NCBI GenBank assembly: GCA_001799675.1
Contig: MGTX01000002.1
Span: 65,878-129,877 of the forward strand
Direction of reading: 5' to 3'
From: Elusimicrobia bacterium GWA2_66_18
Lineage (GTDB): Bacteria > Elusimicrobiota > Elusimicrobia > UBA1565 > UBA9628
Length of the DNA stretch: 64,000 nt
The translations under genes and the position numbers were made by a program. Of this stretch, positions 38,682 through 46,615 are shown in pieces. Each line of letters starts with the position of its first letter. Positions within the stretch are counted from its first letter, which is position 1. Under the pieces are notes generated by a model that worked only from the letters and a program-made list of their open reading frames with translations, was not told the origin of the DNA and did no database searches.

Positions 38682-39899
38682 CTACTTCTCCGCGGCCGCA
38701 TTCTGTCTACGCCCGGAACCAGCCTCTGCGCGCAATAGAGCCGTCCCGATACGGTCCACCAGGCAGCGGATCCCGGCATACCCCAGATACGGCATCTCTC
38801 TGACCGGATGTTCTACATAATTAGGATACCCAATAGGGACATGCGCCGCATCGGCCCGGAAATCATATCCGGTGTGCGTCAAATAGACTCGACATCGGTC
38901 TTGCCGCTCCGTCCCCGGCTCCACCACCCGCATGCCCAATTCCCCGCACAACTCGCTGAGCCGGGCTTGGAGCTGCGCATCCTCCTGTTTCACCTCGGCC
39001 TCTCTCCCGGTGATGAACCTGAGTACGTGGGACTGCGTATCCCGGATTGCGGCCGCGCCCTCCCGAGCGATGACTCGCTTGGCCTGGGCCGCTCGTCCGA
39101 CGCTCCTCGCTATTTCCAATAAGAACCGTTCAGTGGCGACCAAACCCAACGGCAATTCCGTCTCGCATAGCCGTATGTGCAAACGCCGGGAGAGTATGCG
39201 CGCCGCCTTTCGGGCATAGGGCAAAGACACTATAAGACTGGCGCGCGCCGCCGCTTCTAGTTCGCGCCGACCCCCACCGGACAGCCATATTGATACCGTG
39301 CGTAGCCCCAACGCCGCCAGAAGCCGCCGCAGTTCGCGCCGATTGCCGACGTGATCAGGCTCGTCTCGATCCTGTAGATAGCCCACCACCGCCACGCTGT
39401 CCCGCTCTCTCTGTCCGGACTCCAGGGGGATCCCTCTGGCCAACGCCTCGCAGGCAAGCGCATACCCGTCCAGCCAGTCTCCCCCCAGGGAACGAGAAGG
39501 CACATGGCATACCGGGACCCGGGAGCTTTGCGCTTGTCGCCTGGCGATCTCCCGCAAGGGGAATCCCTGCAACTCATTGAAATCAAAGGATGTCGCCAAC
39601 ACCACTTGGGCATCGGGCCGGGAACATATCCTGGCGAATATCCCCGCCACGCGCGCGGTGCGGTCCGTGCTCAGACTCTGCACCTCCTCCCGGGCCGGTC
39701 CCCGGCCGGTATGGACTATCCGGCGATGCCCCAACTGCGGCAACAGCCTACAGCGCAAGTTATGACAATATTGGATCTCCGCCTTGGTGAAAGTGCAGTA
39801 AGGCCCATCCACTATAAGATAGGCGCCCTCAATAGCATCGACCGCGATGTAAACCCCGTTAAGGAACGGCCAGGGTTGAGCCGGAGGGTTCATAGCCAA
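38682..39899 (-). CDS. Nitrogenase component 1-like protein, smaller subunit
   Basis: 405 aa. It keeps the general layout of the NifD/NifK/BchN/BchB superfamily: an early GAYLIVDGPYC segment (matching the HGPxGC loop), three close cysteines (35, 45, 50), then QVVLATSFDFNELQGFP and SLGGDWLDGYALACEAL, which parallel the TCxxELIGDD and later Gly-rich segments. The second ligand cysteine of NifD/NifK is not conserved (FDFNEL). It overlaps the larger partner gene by 10 bases, mirroring nifDK or bchNB organisation. No NifH-like ATPase is in the window. Function unknown. Confidence 0.6.
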   Translation of the reverse strand: MAMNPPAQPWPFLNGVYIAVDAIEGAYLIVDGPYCTFTKAEIQYCHNLRCRLLPQLGHRRIVHTGRGPAREEVQSLSTDRTARVAGIFARICSRPDAQVVLATSFDFNELQGFPLREIARRQAQSSRVPVCHVPSRSLGGDWLDGYALACEALARGIPLESGQRERDSVAVVGYLQDRDEPDHVGNRRELRRLLAALGLRTVSIWLSGGGRRELEAAARASLIVSLPYARKAARILSRRLHIRLCETELPLGLVATERFLLEIARSVGRAAQAKRVIAREGAAAIRDTQSHVLRFITGREAEVKQEDAQLQARLSELCGELGMRVVEPGTERQDRCRVYLTHTGYDFRADAAHVPIGYPNYVEHPVREMPYLGYAGIRCLVDRIGTALLRAEAGSGRRQNAAAEK

Positions 39900-41572
39900 G
39901 ACTTAAGCCCCCCGCGACGCCCGAGGAATGGGCGCATGGCGCATCTCTCCGACAAGATTTTTCCGGAACGCAGCAACCCGTCCATCCCCACCTCCAGGTC
40001 CTTCTCCGTGAAGCCTCGTAGCCCATGGGCCTCCAGCCTGGGGTCATGGTTGAAATGGGAGAATACGAGGTCCGCTCCCCGCGCGAGCTCTTGATCCAAC
40101 TGCCCTCGGGACGCGAAAGGCACGAATTCCAGCGTGCCTGCCCCTTGCGCGGTCCGAGCCGCCCTGGCGCCGTCCCCTCCATTGAACACCAGACAACGCA
40201 CGTTGCAACCCAATTCGCATAACAGCGCTGCCAACGAGAACCCGAACATCTCCCGCTGGGAAGTAAGGTATCCGATATCCGTCATGTCCCCCGCGAGCGC
40301 GACCGTCCGATCTCGTAATTCTTTTTGGATGTCTGCCAACCGACTTTTGCGCGCCGCCAGTTCCTCGGCATAGACTTGGTCCGCCCCGCGGCCTCCCAAA
40401 ACAGAGGCTGTGCGTTCCAGCCAAGCCTTGGTCCCCGCCAGTCCGAATGGCGGATGGTATCTGACCACTTTAAATCCACAGTCCAAGAACGCGGCGTCCC
40501 CGACCTTTTCCCATCCGATAGGATTCCACCAGACCACGGCGCTCGCTTCTCCCAATTCCGGGACCTGCCGGAAATCCAAGGACGGCAGCAAGGTCCCGAC
40601 CACGCGCAATCCCAAGCCGGCGCATAATTCTTTGGCCTCGAGCTGAGCCGCTTGCGAAGCAGATCCACAGAGCAGCACGGCCCGCGGATCGCGCCGAGAT
40701 GCGAATTTGGTCTTGGCCAAAGAACGACGCAGCCATGCCTCGCAGGCGCTGGCCGACGGCCGCGTCTTGGACGTCCAAAACACCGGGATCCCCAAGCGGC
40801 TCTCTATGCTCTTTATGAACGCGGCTGGATTATCTCCGATGAGTTCAGGCAGACAGGTAGTGCGCAGGTGTATGGCGACCGGTCTATGCTCCCGGGCGAC
40901 TCTATCCAAGGTGCGCCCCAAGAGGTCCTGCGTCCGCCCGGCCAATACATCCGCCTCGGTGATGCCCGTGCTTAAATACACATCCCCCTCGCCCGGATCC
41001 TGCGCCACTTCATCCGCGAAATAGCGCAGCGCCGCCACTGAGACATTCGGCGTCATCACTTCGCATTCCCGAGTCCCATGATGTATGCGCGCACAGCGCT
41101 CGCCCAAACGCGCTTGGCTGTCCAAGAACGGATGCTGCGGATAAAAGAACTTCCAAAAATCCGGGGTGTGGTCGCATCTCTCGTAATAACTGTCCTGACG
41201 CGAGGGCCCCTGATTGCCGCGAGGATCGCAATAAAGCAGGCTATCCCTGCCCAGACGGGAGATAAGGGCAACGAAATCGATACGCGCGAATCCTGCGGTT
41301 ATCGCGGCCAATATTCCGCTTTCCGCTGGGGTGGGTCTCCCCGGGCGGTTGAGTTGTCGGATGTCTATTCCCACCGCGCCCCCATTATGAGAGCGGCCCA
41401 GGCGGGGCACGGCAGCCAACTCCAAATGCGTGGCCCCGTCGATCAAAGCAAACTGGAGCTCTAGACTGGTAAAAGACGCTGATTCCAATCTCCAGCCCTT
41501 GGCCGTGCCGTCTATCAGGCGGCGCAAAAAAACCAGCCCCTCCCGCCCCAATCGTTGACTCGATGATCCCAT
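39890..41572 (-). CDS. Nitrogenase component 1-like protein, larger subunit
   Basis: 560 aa. The superfamily hallmark is at about residues 234-248 (AIHLRTTCLPELIGDNPA, Cys240), preceded by STGITEADVLAGR; the third subdomain shows VALAGDMTDIGYLTSQREMFGF. The first 110 residues form an extra domain not found in NifD/NifK. Residues 115-170 are Cys/His-rich (YCDPRGN, YYERCDH, ERCARIHH, RECEV) and may hold a cluster. The start at 41572 has no strong ribosome-binding site; a later start after GGGAGGGG near 41543 is possible. Partner of the overlapping gene downstream. Confidence 0.65.
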   Translation of the reverse strand: MGSSSQRLGREGLVFLRRLIDGTAKGWRLESASFTSLELQFALIDGATHLELAAVPRLGRSHNGGAVGIDIRQLNRPGRPTPAESGILAAITAGFARIDFVALISRLGRDSLLYCDPRGNQGPSRQDSYYERCDHTPDFWKFFYPQHPFLDSQARLGERCARIHHGTRECEVMTPNVSVAALRYFADEVAQDPGEGDVYLSTGITEADVLAGRTQDLLGRTLDRVAREHRPVAIHLRTTCLPELIGDNPAAFIKSIESRLGIPVFWTSKTRPSASACEAWLRRSLAKTKFASRRDPRAVLLCGSASQAAQLEAKELCAGLGLRVVGTLLPSLDFRQVPELGEASAVVWWNPIGWEKVGDAAFLDCGFKVVRYHPPFGLAGTKAWLERTASVLGGRGADQVYAEELAARKSRLADIQKELRDRTVALAGDMTDIGYLTSQREMFGFSLAALLCELGCNVRCLVFNGGDGARAARTAQGAGTLEFVPFASRGQLDQELARGADLVFSHFNHDPRLEAHGLRGFTEKDLEVGMDGLLRSGKILSERCAMRPFLGRRGGLKSWL

Positions 41573-41765
41573 AGGATTATCCGACGATCCCAGTGTATCT
41601 ATCTTAGCATCATAGAAGCCTGGCGTCGCAGCACGGCTCTGTACGGCTCTAAAAAAAATAATATTGTTGAGGTTCAGCGCCTGATGGAATTTTCAGCCGT
41701 TTGGATTCATTAGTATAGGTCGGGTGTCGAGAAACTCAAGAAGGAGAACGCCGCGGGGAGAACAC

Positions 41766-42908
41766 GTGAAGTTCTCGCCCGAAAAGAAGATGAAACTGTC
41801 GAGGATCTCGCGATTGAAAAAATCGTTGAAAGTGCGATTTGTGTTCGTCAGCTGCATAGTCGCCGCAACTGTGCTTTTGTTCATTCTACTGGAAATCGTT
41901 TCTTTTGGACTCAATGCCAGCTTCAGCAGGGCGACTCCTCCGTTTCTCATTGACACCGGCGTGCTGCGCGGCGCAAAAGAAGGGAGAAGCCTCAACTATC
42001 TGGACCCGCTGCTCGGTGTTGCGCATAACCCCTTCACGCTGAAGACGCTCGGCCATCGAACTTTCCATGGCTTCGAAGTCCACGGCGATCCCGACGACAG
42101 GCAAGCCCTTCGCATTATCACGCTGGGCGGCTCAACGACAGAGTGCTTTGTCGGCAACTGGCCAAGGGCCCTCTACGAAGAATGCAAAAAGAGGAAGATT
42201 CCGGTGGTCTTGTTCAATGGCGGAGTCTCCAGCTACGGTTCGGGACAGGAGCTATTCAAGCTCATCCGCGACGGAATCATATTGCGCCCCCACGTGGTGG
42301 TCTCCTATGACGGCGTCAACGACCGCGGCAGAGGCAACAGCGGCGGCAACGAGGGAAGCCATAGGTTGCTTCATCCCGTCCACTATCGCATCTACTCCCA
42401 ACTCCTATGGGGAGGCCCATCCCCTTTATTGCCAAACACCGTTGCCGCCCTGCGCCGAACCCTTTTCTCCAAAAATTCAATCGAGGGGATTGAGTGGGGC
42501 CTGCCATTCACCATGACATCGGCAGCTGGGTGGCTGCTGAATGTCCGCACGATGAATGCTGTGGCCTCTGAGTTCGGATTTCATTATGTTGACTTCCTTC
42601 AGCCGGCATTCGGCGTGGGAGACTACCGCCCGTCCCGTGAAGAATACGCCAGGGTGCGCGTTCCCGACAACGACCGCAAGGAACTCGACAAGTTCTACAG
42701 AGAGGCATTGCGCTTTTCCTCTGATCAAGAATATATCGTCGACCTCACGAACGTGTTCGCGGGCCGCAACGGTTTCTTTCGTGATTATTGCCACCTAGAT
42801 GAGGAAGGCAATCGCCTCGTGGGCCATGCCGTGTTTCGCGAGCTCGAGTCACGACGGTGGCTGGATCGCTTTCCGTCGCCTGCTGCGGAGCGGCGCAGGC
42901 AGCGGTAG
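41766..42908 (+). CDS. Membrane-anchored SGNH/GDSL-family hydrolase
   Basis: About 380 aa. One N-terminal membrane helix (about 24-46), then an SGNH domain with TLGGSTTECF (catalytic Ser123), SYDGVNDRGRG (Asn of block III) and DYCHLDEEGN (Asp and His of block V). Such proteins deacylate or acylate cell-surface glycans. I prefer GTG 41766 for its GGGGAG; GTG 41724 and ATG 41790 are alternatives. The preceding roughly 190 bases are AT-rich and probably hold divergent promoters for this gene and the nitrogenase-like pair. Confidence 0.8.
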   Translation: MKFSPEKKMKLSRISRLKKSLKVRFVFVSCIVAATVLLFILLEIVSFGLNASFSRATPPFLIDTGVLRGAKEGRSLNYLDPLLGVAHNPFTLKTLGHRTFHGFEVHGDPDDRQALRIITLGGSTTECFVGNWPRALYEECKKRKIPVVLFNGGVSSYGSGQELFKLIRDGIILRPHVVVSYDGVNDRGRGNSGGNEGSHRLLHPVHYRIYSQLLWGGPSPLLPNTVAALRRTLFSKNSIEGIEWGLPFTMTSAAGWLLNVRTMNAVASEFGFHYVDFLQPAFGVGDYRPSREEYARVRVPDNDRKELDKFYREALRFSSDQEYIVDLTNVFAGRNGFFRDYCHLDEEGNRLVGHAVFRELESRRWLDRFPSPAAERRRQR

Positions 42909-43020: not shown

Positions 43021-44517
43021 ATGAAGACTGTGTCTCCTGGACGCGGCGGCCCCATCAGACTGATGCTCGTCGAGTTGACGCTCGATGAGCCGGAGCGCCA
43101 GAACGGCGTCGAGGCCTATCCTCTTCTGATGGGCCTGGGGTCAATGCTCGGCTGGCGCGTGTCGTGGTGCACTCTGGGCGTGCGGTACGACCCCACCCTT
43201 CGCTACCGTCTGCCTCCGCGGGACCTCGGTGCGCTGCTCGCCGAGATCTCCCGCCGTAAGCCTCGGATCATCGTGATTAACGAGCATCTGCAGGAAGACC
43301 AGTGGACGCGGGTGAAGGCGACCAGAGCGCGACTGGTCCACTCTTCCCTCGACGAAGGAACCCTCGACCATTTCGCCGACTTCGTGCGGCAGGAGATCCC
43401 TGAGGCCGCAGGGGCCGATCTCGATAGCCCGCGCCTCTTCGACCGGATCCAGCCCGAGTTTCGCCGAACGATCCTCAACAAGACTCCATGGGCGAAGCTT
43501 TCGATCATCCGTGTGGTCACAGGGATGCGATGTTCCTACCGCACGCACGTCGCGCAGAACCCTTACTACCGCGGCATCGTGCCTTCCGCGAAGACCATGC
43601 GCTGCTCTTTCTGCGACCTGCGCCGCATGGCCATGCCCTTACGCGACGAAGTGTCCTTCGCTGTGCGCCTCATCGAGGCCGCCTGCCGGCAGCGCCGAGT
43701 CGAGAAGGGCCGCGAGTACCGTTTCGAGACGCTGGGCTGCCGGCTGTGGCGCAGATTGGGGGAGTTCGTCGAAACCTTGACGCGGCGGGGAGTGCGCTCC
43801 GCGGAACTCAACTTCATGCCGCGGTTCGACGAGCTCCTATCGGCGCGCGAGATGATCTCCCGCTGCCTTCCCCTGATGGCGCGCGGCGGCCTCGCCATGC
43901 GCCTCTACGGCATGGGAGTGGAGAATTTCTCGCCGGCAGAGAACATGCGTCTCAACAAGGGGGTCACGGCCGATCAGGTCCACGAGGCCACCCGTTTCAT
44001 GAAGGAGATGGCCGCACGCTGGCCGGGCACGTTCCGTCTGCCGCCGGGCGGCTTCAGCATGATCCTGTTCACCCCGTGGACAACGATCGAGGACTTGCGC
44101 ATTAACGTCAACAACATCAAGCGTTGCCCGATGATTGATCCCGCCTTTGCGCTCGGCAGGCGTCTACAACTCTTTCCCGGCCTGCCCGTCACAGCTTTGG
44201 CCGAGAAGGACGGTCTCGTCGCGGCCGAAGGGAGCGGCCTCTTCTATAATTCGGGCTGCATTGCGAAGGTTGACCGCCAGGAAATCCCCTGGCGCTTCCA
44301 GCATCCGGAAGTCGATATTCTATGGCGCCTCGCCCTCAGGATATCCTCCGGCCATGTCTTCCTGGAGGGCGCGCGGAGTTCTCCGCCGAGGGAGATGCTC
44401 GATCCTCTGTCGCTATTCCGACGCGCCATCGAGCGCGCCGCGGCGTCAGCACCGTGTCGAGAGAGTCCTACTGCTTCGAGGGCGACTGGAGCGGTTCGAA
44501 GACGTCCCGCCGGATGA
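43021..44517 (+). CDS. B12-binding-like radical SAM protein with split cysteine motif
   Basis: 498 aa. The first 130 residues have a Rossmann-like pattern as in cobalamin-binding radical SAM enzymes (NGVEAYPLLMGLGSMLGW, PRIIVINEHLQ). The cluster cysteines appear as Cys171, Cys195 and Cys198 (GMRCSYRTH ... TMRCSFCDL): the first is separated by 23 residues instead of three. Later segments (RFETLGCRLW, FMPRFDELL, MRLYGMGVENFSPAENMRLNKG, GGFSMILFTPWTTIEDL) fit a TIM-barrel with the SAM-binding strand order. ATG 43021 is a choice over 42967. Substrate unknown. Confidence 0.7.
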   Translation: MKTVSPGRGGPIRLMLVELTLDEPERQNGVEAYPLLMGLGSMLGWRVSWCTLGVRYDPTLRYRLPPRDLGALLAEISRRKPRIIVINEHLQEDQWTRVKATRARLVHSSLDEGTLDHFADFVRQEIPEAAGADLDSPRLFDRIQPEFRRTILNKTPWAKLSIIRVVTGMRCSYRTHVAQNPYYRGIVPSAKTMRCSFCDLRRMAMPLRDEVSFAVRLIEAACRQRRVEKGREYRFETLGCRLWRRLGEFVETLTRRGVRSAELNFMPRFDELLSAREMISRCLPLMARGGLAMRLYGMGVENFSPAENMRLNKGVTADQVHEATRFMKEMAARWPGTFRLPPGGFSMILFTPWTTIEDLRINVNNIKRCPMIDPAFALGRRLQLFPGLPVTALAEKDGLVAAEGSGLFYNSGCIAKVDRQEIPWRFQHPEVDILWRLALRISSGHVFLEGARSSPPREMLDPLSLFRRAIERAAASAPCRESPTASRATGAVRRRPAG

Positions 44518-44548
44518 GACCAAGGCGCTGATTGCAAGCAATGATAAA

Positions 44549-46615
44549 ATGGGCCGGATGAACACGTTGACGATTTTTAGAACCCGTATCGACCTCCTGA
44601 GGACATATCTCGCTCGTCGCGTCGGACCGAAGCTTCTCCCTATTTTATGTGTTGGCTCGATGATCGGCGCCGTGTGCCTTTTCATCTGGCAGTCCCACCA
44701 TATGGATTCAGCCCACTTTCCCATCCGGTTACTCCTGAATTTCGATGCCTGGGGCTATTCCGACGAGGGCGAGTCTCTTCTCCATGGAATCAGTTCGGGT
44801 TGGAGTCCGATCCGAATGCCTCTGTCCAGCGTGCTGGCCGCCCTATTCTTTCGCCACTGGGGGTTTTCCCCATCAGATTGGGGGATTCTTTCCGTCGGTC
44901 TTAAATTTGGCCTCCTCTTTGCCCTCAGCGGGATGCTTCTCCCGGGTATTTTCCCAGTCTGTCTGGCCCTGGGCACACTGATCCTGGCCGATGAGAACAT
45001 TTTTTTAACCAGTTATATGGAATCGGGTTCTTCCATATTTTTGCTGATTGTGGCGGGACTGCTGGTTTGGCGCGAACAGGCCTTGTCGTACAGACAGAGC
45101 TTCCTGCTTTCCTTCGCCATCGGGACCAGCCTCTTGTTTCGCTCTCCCCTTGTGTTTTTTCCGCCCCTTCTGGCTCTATTCGAGGGGCAACGCGCTCCAT
45201 CGATCCGGTCGTACTGGAAGCACGCGCTGATCCTCTGCATCGTCCCGTATCTTTTTCTGATCCCCTGGGTTCGGATGAACTGGGCCCTCCATAATCGGTT
45301 CATCCCATTGGAATATGACGCGGCCAACGTGAACATCGCCGCGGGAGCGCTGGGGTTTGTAACCTCCATGGACGGAGACTGGCGCCAAATTGTTGGGCCT
45401 ACGGGTCCCGACAAGTTTTGGACAATCTGGAGGTGGGCGGCCAGCGAGATCGGGCGTCACCCCCTTCGCTATCTGAAGGCTTACGCACAACGAATCGAAT
45501 ACGTCGTGACCCTCCACCCGGCGCTCTTCCTGGCAGCATTCTTGACGCTGTGTCTCTATCGCCAAAAACGGGAATTCCAGGTCTTGGGCCTTATGGTTCT
45601 CTACTACGTAGGCATCTATTGCTCCATGGCCGTGGTGTCACGCTCTTTTGATCCCCTCGTGCCGGTGCTGGCCGTTCTAGCCGCCTGTGGCCCGTTCGCC
45701 CTGCTCAAGACGAAAGCCATCGTCCCGGGACATCGCCAGCTGGCGAGATACGTCATCAGCTTGTTGCTCGCGATCGTGACGGCATGTGCCCTCTATGCGG
45801 CAGCGAAGGTCTCCCTGTACGCGGCCCAAATCACCCAGACTTCCGCCTCCAGCAGGGAATTGCTGGATGACGCCATCCGCACTCAGCCACAGCATGCATG
45901 GCTTCTTTTCGCACGGGGCAGAAGACACCTTGACGCCGGGAATATCCCCGAAGCGATCTCGGATTTGTCTCGAGCCGCAGCAATGAGCCCGCGCGATCCG
46001 GGATGCAGGTTAAGACTGGCTTGGGCTCGCATGATGCGGGGCAATCCCCAATCCCTGCTGGCATGGCCGATCCTTCCCAATGGGCGCAACAACAATCTCA
46101 ATGTAGACGCCCATCTTTTCAAAGCGCATGCGTATTTGAGGATGGGGCGGCCCTCCGCCGCACATCACGAGCTGAAAGACGCAATGGAAAGCGAGCTTCT
46201 GATGACAGCTCTGAACGAGGCAGGGACGCCTCGGGAACGGGGGATTATCGAGCAGATGCGATCTGCTCACGCCGGGTTTATCAATAAAGCATCGCACCTC
46301 TTGACGAATCGCCCCGCCCGGGAGCAACTCGCCATGCTCGGCGAGCTGGCGAAGTTGGCTCCGCGAGACGACGTTCTCACGCTCCGGCGCGTGGATCTTA
46401 TGCTGGAAGTGGGCCAGATTCGCAGGGCACGGGAACTCTTGGAGCACGCCGGGGCCGGAGTGGACGCCCAGCGTGAGGGGCTCCGCAGGGTCGCGCGGAG
46501 CTATCAGATGAAGGGGGACTGCAAGAGCGCCCTCCGGTTATGGGACATGATCCTCCAAGACCCTCATCACCAGGCCAAAGATTTCAGCGATCAATCCGTC
46601 TGCGAGGTGCAATAA
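44549..46615 (+). CDS. GT-C-like membrane glycosyltransferase with TPR-like tail
   Basis: 688 aa. About eleven hydrophobic helices span residues 25-430, with an early periplasmic acidic motif FDAWGYSDEGESLL like the catalytic Asp/Glu loop of GT39/GT83 enzymes. After about residue 450 comes a soluble helical-repeat domain (LLFARGRRHLDAGNIPEAISDLSRAAAM and similar) with TPR spacing. It probably uses a polyprenyl-linked sugar donor. ATG 44549 and 44558 are both possible; neither has a strong SD. Confidence 0.7.
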   Translation: MGRMNTLTIFRTRIDLLRTYLARRVGPKLLPILCVGSMIGAVCLFIWQSHHMDSAHFPIRLLLNFDAWGYSDEGESLLHGISSGWSPIRMPLSSVLAALFFRHWGFSPSDWGILSVGLKFGLLFALSGMLLPGIFPVCLALGTLILADENIFLTSYMESGSSIFLLIVAGLLVWREQALSYRQSFLLSFAIGTSLLFRSPLVFFPPLLALFEGQRAPSIRSYWKHALILCIVPYLFLIPWVRMNWALHNRFIPLEYDAANVNIAAGALGFVTSMDGDWRQIVGPTGPDKFWTIWRWAASEIGRHPLRYLKAYAQRIEYVVTLHPALFLAAFLTLCLYRQKREFQVLGLMVLYYVGIYCSMAVVSRSFDPLVPVLAVLAACGPFALLKTKAIVPGHRQLARYVISLLLAIVTACALYAAAKVSLYAAQITQTSASSRELLDDAIRTQPQHAWLLFARGRRHLDAGNIPEAISDLSRAAAMSPRDPGCRLRLAWARMMRGNPQSLLAWPILPNGRNNNLNVDAHLFKAHAYLRMGRPSAAHHELKDAMESELLMTALNEAGTPRERGIIEQMRSAHAGFINKASHLLTNRPAREQLAMLGELAKLAPRDDVLTLRRVDLMLEVGQIRRARELLEHAGAGVDAQREGLRRVARSYQMKGDCKSALRLWDMILQDPHHQAKDFSDQSVCEVQ

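Follow-up and report, generated by a model that had tools for sequence, protein, structure and literature searches.

The 64,000-nucleotide stretch analysed here (the window; positions 65,878 to 129,877 of contig MGTX01000002.1 from Elusimicrobia bacterium GWA2_66_18) carries, on the minus strand at window 38682-41572, two overlapping genes for relatives of the catalytic component of nitrogenase. Both open reading frames (ORFs) were confirmed, the D-like subunit (D) upstream of the K-like subunit (K), with the D stop and the K start sharing the four bases ATGA. Because of this overlap, the ATG at 39893 is the most likely start of K, in preference to the TTG at 39899, from which the K residue numbering used below is counted. 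The pair belongs to the nitrogenase component-1 superfamily by hidden Markov model (HMM) and by fold; PF00148 scores 101.4 bits for K and 94.5 bits for D (cut-off 28.6). A first-pass annotation had proposed two overlapping component-1-like genes, quoting the motifs TTCLPELIGDN in D and DGPYC in K. Both motifs are present, containing D-Cys240 and K-Cys35, respectively, and the HMM and Foldseek searches, on which that proposal turned, were both positive. Its view that the proteins are too divergent for NifDK, NifEN or BchNB agrees with all six equivalog models, which fall far short of their cut-offs: nifD (TIGR01282) 13.3 of 653.6, nifK (TIGR01286) 20.1 of 427.3, nifE (TIGR01283) 35.4 of 505, nifN (TIGR01285) 10.6 of 327, BchB 37.9 of 490 and BchN 51.9 of 324 bits. 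No CfbD model was among the NCBIfam matches of the pair, a comparison that did not include the CfbD sequence itself.

AlphaFold models were obtained for D (pLDDT 79.2) and K (pLDDT 79.5, pTM 0.82). The top Foldseek match of the D model is the methylthio-alkane reductase subunit MarD (9d9u_A, E 5.4e-18, query TM 0.46) and that of the K model is NifK (4wes_B, E 3.2e-16, query TM 0.71). By sequence profile, MarD is likewise the closest solved structure to D (83 bits), followed by NifE (48 bits), and K is about equally close to NifK (47.7 bits) and MarK (42.2 bits).

Which residues could hold a metal cluster? Ligand positions were counted in a MAFFT alignment with NifD, NifE and NifK from Elusimicrobiota genomes. 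Every one of the 25 D-type sequences, NifD and NifE included, has Cys at the positions of D-Cys170 and D-Cys240; by eye, the first P-cluster cysteine of NifD has no counterpart in D, and on our reading of the alignment the pair keeps three of the six P-cluster cysteines. At the position of the cysteine for the iron-molybdenum cofactor (FeMoco), all 16 window-type D proteins (the family of relatives described below) have Asn or Asp, the window D having Asn350, and none of the 15 that reach the His442 region of NifD has a His there. The missing cysteine outweighs the missing His, because MarD carries its cluster His in a loop other than that of NifD, as PMC12552129 indicates. In K, Cys35 is Cys in 18 of 19 K-like proteins and in 12 of 12 family members. 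Cys45 is present in 11 of the 12 window-type K proteins and is Gly in six C16 types (K1, K2, K4, K5, K6 and K7), named after the contig on which the other component-1-like genes of the genome lie. We prefer Cys35 as the probable cluster ligand, a judgement based on its DGPYC motif, its place at a strand-helix turn in the model, its wider conservation and the Gly that replaces Cys45 in the six C16 proteins. Asp106 is found in all 12 window-type K proteins, at the third cluster-cysteine position of NifK by MAFFT, and an hhalign comparison of K with D pairs it with Cys240. Position 108 is Asn in the window, His in 11 of the 12 window-type K proteins and Cys in the same six C16 types. The three-Cys head noticed earlier in K stands for its first two members; Cys50 is variable among the 12. 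A Cys/His-rich stretch does exist in D as described, mostly unconserved, with just His135 and Cys170 persisting in all 14 family members. Overall, D keeps 103 of the 111 residues (92.8%) that are invariant in 13 relatives, the window being excluded from the invariance count, and K keeps 107 of 113 (94.7%) invariant in 11 relatives, with two His residues, one of them His108, among its losses. The corresponding range among other single relatives is 87-100% for D and 88-100% for K, so that the pair stands towards the lower end without being the lowest.

Features of the locus, in window coordinates. K residues are numbered from the TTG codon.
Feature	Position	Strand	Remark
D-like subunit	39890..41572	-	560 aa, nitrogenase component-1 type
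N-terminal accessory domain of D, residues 1-115	41228..41572	-	without counterpart in NifD
D-Cys170	codon 41063-41065	-	conserved cluster cysteine
D-Cys240	codon 40853-40855	-	conserved cluster cysteine
K-like subunit	38682..39893	-	403 aa from ATG; 405 from TTG at 39899
K-Cys35	codon 39795-39797	-	preferred cluster-ligand candidate, DGPYC
K-Cys45	codon 39765-39767	-	alternative cluster-ligand candidate
K-Asp106	codon 39582-39584	-	near third NifK cluster-cysteine position
K-Asn108	codon 39576-39578	-	His in most window-type K
SGNH/GDSL-hydrolase-like gene, between pair and SYR	41724..42908	+	PF13472 27.8 bits, cut-off 32.9
SYR radical-SAM-like gene	43054..44517	+	ORF open from 42967; start near 43054-43063
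Large tetratricopeptide repeat (TPR) protein ORF	44135-46615		overlaps SYR end; start probably later

The gene that the first-pass annotation had called radical S-adenosylmethionine (SAM) encodes a protein that we refer to as SYR and lies, as stated there, 1.4 kb from the pair on the opposite (plus) strand. Its cysteine motif is C-X23-C-X2-C; across the SYR family each of the three cysteines is present in 25 of 26 aligned sequences, and the pattern, recognised in 23 of the 26, is spaced C-X22-28-C-X2-C. The genome holds SYR family members at five places, four on contig C16 and one beside the window pair, and of 16 related D genes, 10 have a member no more than 5 kb away. In two relatives SYR and D are fused in one ORF, L057:6033-9377 (1114 aa) and L052:4915-7981 (1022 aa, cut by the contig end), the latter joining a 52.6% relative of window SYR to a 52.7% relative of window D. 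These fusions are the best evidence for the proposal that both proteins act together, and with genome matches confined to C16 and the pair they place SYR in the same system. Its enzyme class is less distinct than had been claimed. Window SYR has no Pfam match at E<=1, NCBIfam radical-SAM models match it at E 0.0024 and 0.0064, and no convincing PDB sequence match was found (best E 0.36); neither PF04055 over its cut-off nor the CX3CX2C spacing of the superfamily was found in SYR. We regard SYR as probably radical SAM, judging from its sequence, and reject its listing as a clear member given such weak matches.

Where, then, might a reductase for the pair come from? The genome (2.79 Mb in 34 contigs, 94.7% complete, with the window in contig C2) matches PF00148 at 18 places, the window pair and 16 on contig C16 between 46 and 104 kb. 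The latter represent 15 genes (one matched in two pieces), arranged as seven pairs and one single K, for a genome total of 17 component-1-like genes. The search for a NifH-like gene that had been suggested earlier gave six PF00142 matches. Two are short (38-42 residues) and lie on other contigs; the other four span about 260 residues each and map to the C16 cluster, where two of them belong to proteins in which NifH is fused to D. Each of the four long domains has a P-loop and the two cluster-cysteine motifs. The two free-standing C16 NifH proteins reach 207-277 bits with the NifH and CfbC models and pass neither cut-off, one of them scoring almost equally on each (CfbC 276.7, NifH 276.1 bits). 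The C16 pair closest to the window pair (51% for D, 62% for K) is directly followed by two NifH genes. The absence of a reductase, as first noted, is therefore true of the window neighbourhood but not of the genome, given the four NifH-like domains in the C16 cluster. Neither NifD (threshold E<=1e-60) nor NifB (E<=1e-10) was matched in the genome, which makes nitrogen fixation by the pair very unlikely as judged from gene content. The C16 cluster is rich in radical-SAM genes and also contains carbamoyltransferase genes and a TP_methylase gene. Gene calls on C16 and in the relatives came from a codon-usage gene finder that missed the window pair, whose codon use is atypical, and possibly missed others.

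The extra domain of about 110 residues that had been noticed in D is real and is carried by other D proteins of the C16 cluster as well. A profile built from window-type proteins only was run against 344 proteins. It found the domain in D2 members at i-E 2e-4 to 0.02 and in two of three D6 members at 0.006-0.007, the third at 0.39; D7 values of 0.28-0.38 are not significant alone, and D5 was not found with this profile. By hhalign, the window-type domain compared with that of D2/D5/D6/D7 gave 90.3%. Taken together, these comparisons indicate that the domain is common to at least the D2 and D6 groups. Three other candidates for sharing it, first suggested by eye, found no support by hhalign: the C-terminal tails of SYR (2.7%; reversed control 0.8%), C16:82103-84145 (0.1%, no reversed control) and a carbamoyltransferase fusion (0.2%; reversed control 0.2%). 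C16:78502-82047 encodes 1181 aa in which a carbamoyltransferase, a ferredoxin-like stretch and a radical-SAM domain are discerned by eye; a 1159-aa relative (64.5%) in genome G027 (L051:12616-16095) stands beside window-type D, K and NifH genes. Elsewhere on C16, two TGA stops break the gene for the K partner of a NifH-D fusion protein (C16:74261-75582, L016:14262-15583), which points to either a pseudogene or an assembly error. Because a Mutator-family transposase (PF00872, 228 bits) sits inside the cluster at C16:87940-89097 (L017:7941-9098), and the genes from 89.1 to 105.2 kb have a GC content of 70-77%, above most others called on C16, the cluster may be a mosaic.

Searching 340 genomes of the phylum with the D alignment gave matches at E<=1e-20 in 30. 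The long window-type D was found in at least 11 of the 340 (18 places, each at least 718 bits), all in the same family, a lower bound as at most four candidates per genome were scored; a twelfth genome, G043, has an edge fragment, and the best match beyond this group reached 146 bits. In genome_contigs, 11 loci were found, one titled 'bacterium' and 10 titled Elusimicrobia or Elusimicrobiota, five of these NC_groundwater, in accord with the groundwater Elusimicrobiota link that had been drawn. One scan of viral_contigs with the D alignment found no viral carrier. The neighbourhood survey that had been recommended shows, besides the proximity of SYR, that, at the threshold applied, 10 of the 16 related D genes examined have a neighbouring K gene, with an eleventh K truncated at a contig end, and that in 8 of these 10 D-K operons (one of them truncated in the same way) the gene immediately after K is a NifH gene of one type (H3w). 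The window pair belongs to the minority of orphan pairs. Two other orphan pairs, L061:7620-10504 and L062:11380-14300, group together in the D and K trees (98/99), and one is broken by TAG; a PIN/PhoH-like gene, recognised by eye, lies near both.

What is the origin of the window pair? Window K is sister to eight K proteins that NifH follows, the C16 one included (96/92). Window D has a deep place that its tree leaves unresolved, with no closer partner. Together these placements rule out a recent duplicate of the C16 pair. The GC content at third codon positions (GC3) of D and K (0.681 and 0.688) is the lowest of 103 called genes, whose median is 0.853, in a ranking of called genes over 450 bases from the window and C16 20-110 kb; two neighbours outside that ranking, being uncalled, are as low (GDSL-like 0.673, TPR 0.683). 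The pair could be an ancient paralogue or could have been imported from a relative; either origin fits. As for the neighbouring genes, the SGNH/GDSL-like gene has no homologue among 344 genes compared, and its membership in the system is uncertain; a relative of the TPR protein in the G017 cluster adjoins a radical-SAM gene (L058:1610-4744), and the best relative of a neighbouring CBS gene is just 52% identical.

What might the pair do? We consider it fairly probable that D and K together catalyse the ATP-dependent reduction of an organic substrate, as one half of a nitrogenase-like two-component enzyme whose NifH acts in trans. The observations behind this proposal are the component-1 family and fold, the missing FeMoco cysteine, the conserved residues, the fusion and co-occurrence with SYR and the NifH-like genes elsewhere in the genome; the following steps are conditional on them. 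D and K would form a DK complex, probably (DK)2, holding one bridging [4Fe-4S] cluster through D-Cys170, D-Cys240 and K-Cys35, with K-Asp106 as an oxygen ligand. A NifH-like ATPase from C16 would dock in trans, and C16:56169-57026 is the best candidate because 8 of 10 related D-K operons have its relative as the next gene after K. This protein would hydrolyse ATP and pass electrons via the [4Fe-4S] cluster to an organic substrate occupying the cavity that holds FeMoco in nitrogenase, where a double bond would be reduced as in DPOR and CfbCD. SYR may act on the same substrate just before or after, and the window locus could supply an outlying extra step or an alternative branch of a C16 pathway that makes a cofactor or natural product.

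Several observations weigh against this proposal. No NifH lies in the window; 2 of the 10 other D-K pairs have none within 5 kb, and because one of the two has an in-frame TAG, orphan pairs may be decaying. The end branches of window D and K are the longest of their trees (0.65 for D; 0.49, tied, for K). The fit of the D model is moderate, with a query TM of 0.43-0.50 among the 50 matches listed for single-chain models. MAFFT and hhalign both align K-Cys45, not Cys35, with the NifK ligand in HGSQGC, and Cys35 with a non-ligand Cys of NifK. Moreover, hhalign with NifK puts the third-Cys position at Ser104, with a gap, and not at Asp106; the assignment of the fourth cluster ligand is uncertain. 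For SYR, PF04055 matches 3 of 18 members (best 2.6e-4, below the cut-off), and a profile comparison with eight canonical radical-SAM proteins gave 5.7%.

A specific form of the favoured proposal, which we hold to be doubtful, takes a tetrapyrrole as the substrate. PMC9391474, citing Meheust, assigns putative tetrapyrrole cofactor biosynthesis genes to group VI, with which the C16 cluster is compared below. HemB is present in the genome, the C16 cluster has a TP_methylase-family gene (C16:45026-45703, L015:5027-5704; PF00590, 40.3 bits), and a missing FeMoco cysteine is expected of an enzyme with a substrate cavity. Yet a uroporphyrinogen-III methyltransferase search (TIGR01469, E<=1e-5) gave no match in this 94.7% complete genome, although it was positive in 13 of 14 control genomes; moreover, just two TP_methylase matches were found, and the one on C16 scores best on the RsmI rRNA methylase model (58.7 bits, below the cut-off of 167.9). 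Evidence of a branch to sirohydrochlorin, B12 or F430 is thus lacking in the genome, and a sirohydrochlorin-derived substrate appears unlikely unless it is imported or its synthesis is encoded in the missing 5% of the genome; a tetrapyrrole of the haem branch is possible. If the tetrapyrrole idea rests on a gene of the C16:45026-45703 type, its basis is thin.

Could the pair instead be a non-catalytic or decaying paralogue, a scaffold or a gene pair near loss? In keeping with this, no NifH is nearby, His108 of K has changed to Asn, both end branches are long, and invariant residues have been lost (8 of 111 in D and 6 of 113 in K), a loss above that of most relatives and below that of some. The GC3 of 0.68-0.69 is the lowest of the 103 genes, though the two uncalled neighbours are equally low, and in G027:C110 a TAG disrupts a comparable orphan pair. 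However, the two reading frames are coupled and free of interruptions; the pair retains D-Cys170 and D-Cys240 as well as K-Cys35, K-Cys45 and K-Asp106; the branches are not flagged as long by the tool; and the positions of K and D in their trees argue against a recent degenerate copy. On balance we think decay or loss of catalysis improbable. A FeMoco-type or [Fe8S9C]-type enzyme (nitrogenase, methylthio-alkane or isethionate reductase) is already disfavoured and in our view very improbable: profile and fold comparisons both point to MarD as the nearest solved structure to D, such enzymes also adjoin radical-SAM genes according to PMC11423573, and a His missing at the NifD place is not decisive given the other loop in MarD (PMC12552129), but the pair keeps three of the six MarDK P-cluster cysteines on our alignment reading, the Cys270/Cys275 position is Asn or Asp in all 16 window-type D proteins, and the genome has no NifB match.

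Known nitrogenase-type chemistry serves nitrogen fixation, the synthesis of chlorophyll and F430, and C-S bond cleavage. A genome with 17 component-1-like genes and four NifH-like domains, and with no NifD or NifB match, points to the use of this chemistry for something else. One tentative possibility is that about eight reductases of the nitrogenase type act in this organism as a reductive assembly line, together with a new class of radical enzymes marked by the stretched cysteine motif; within it the window pair would be a free-standing station with an Asp-ligated cluster and its own radical partner, and the product might be a novel cofactor or natural product. The D-SYR fusion suggests which two enzymes share a substrate, and the absent uroporphyrinogen-III methylase narrows the published tetrapyrrole guess; together they make the function testable. 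Of the first-pass reading as a whole, the superfamily, the extra domain, the radical-SAM-like neighbour and the Elusimicrobiota link have held, and the absence of a reductase, the novelty and the Cys/His-rich stretch have given way in whole or in part.

How does the pair compare with known systems? DPOR has a component-1 fold without FeMoco, like the pair, and its bridging [4Fe-4S] cluster is held by three Cys and one Asp. The residues of the pair are compatible with such a cluster, but K-Cys35/Cys45 and Asp106/108 are ambiguous; the pair also differs in drawing two Cys from D and one from K, and in its DPOR model scores (37.9/51.9 bits against cut-offs of 490/324). The CfbCD system resembles it in that one C16 NifH protein scores alike on CfbC and NifH and in the likely absence of FeMoco. 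CfbD works as a homodimer, whereas the window encodes D and K, in a genome where no uroporphyrinogen-III methyltransferase was found. The CfbD substrate is Ni-sirohydrochlorin a,c-diamide. MarDK (PDB 9FMG, 9D9U) includes the closest solved relative of D and likewise has a NifH-like reductase and a radical-SAM partner gene; it holds a P-cluster, with six cysteines, and an [Fe8S9C] cluster, with Cys270 and His429 of MarD on its side, according to PMC12552129. In contrast, the pair lacks three of the six P-cluster Cys and the [Fe8S9C] Cys by our census of cysteine positions. Relative to NifDK, too, three of six P-cluster Cys are missing, the FeMoco Cys is Asn and the His442 region has no His.

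A nitrogenase paralogue from groundwater Elusimicrobia was reportedly described by Meheust et al. in 2020 (ISME J 14:2907). The C16 cluster and its relatives presumably fit group VI, which reportedly combines NifH/D/K-like components with an extensive suite of surrounding radical-SAM genes in Elusimicrobiota. The window pair differs in forming a separate, second locus that has no NifH, in carrying the Asp in K and in its association with the stretched-motif SYR family. The description of the pair as of an undescribed kind is partly wrong, this kind having been reported for groundwater Elusimicrobia in 2020 and group VI being cited in PMC9391474. In the titles and abstract openings surveyed, a scope that did not extend to the key 2020 paper, no account of the window-type subfamily was recognised, and its novelty is unproven. 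What appears new here is a window-type subfamily, present in at least 11 of 340 genomes of the phylum, whose K proteins share an unvarying Asp close to the position of the third cluster cysteine. To this are added the lack of a FeMoco cysteine, a genome without NifD or NifB matches, and the fusion of D to the SYR family in two relatives.

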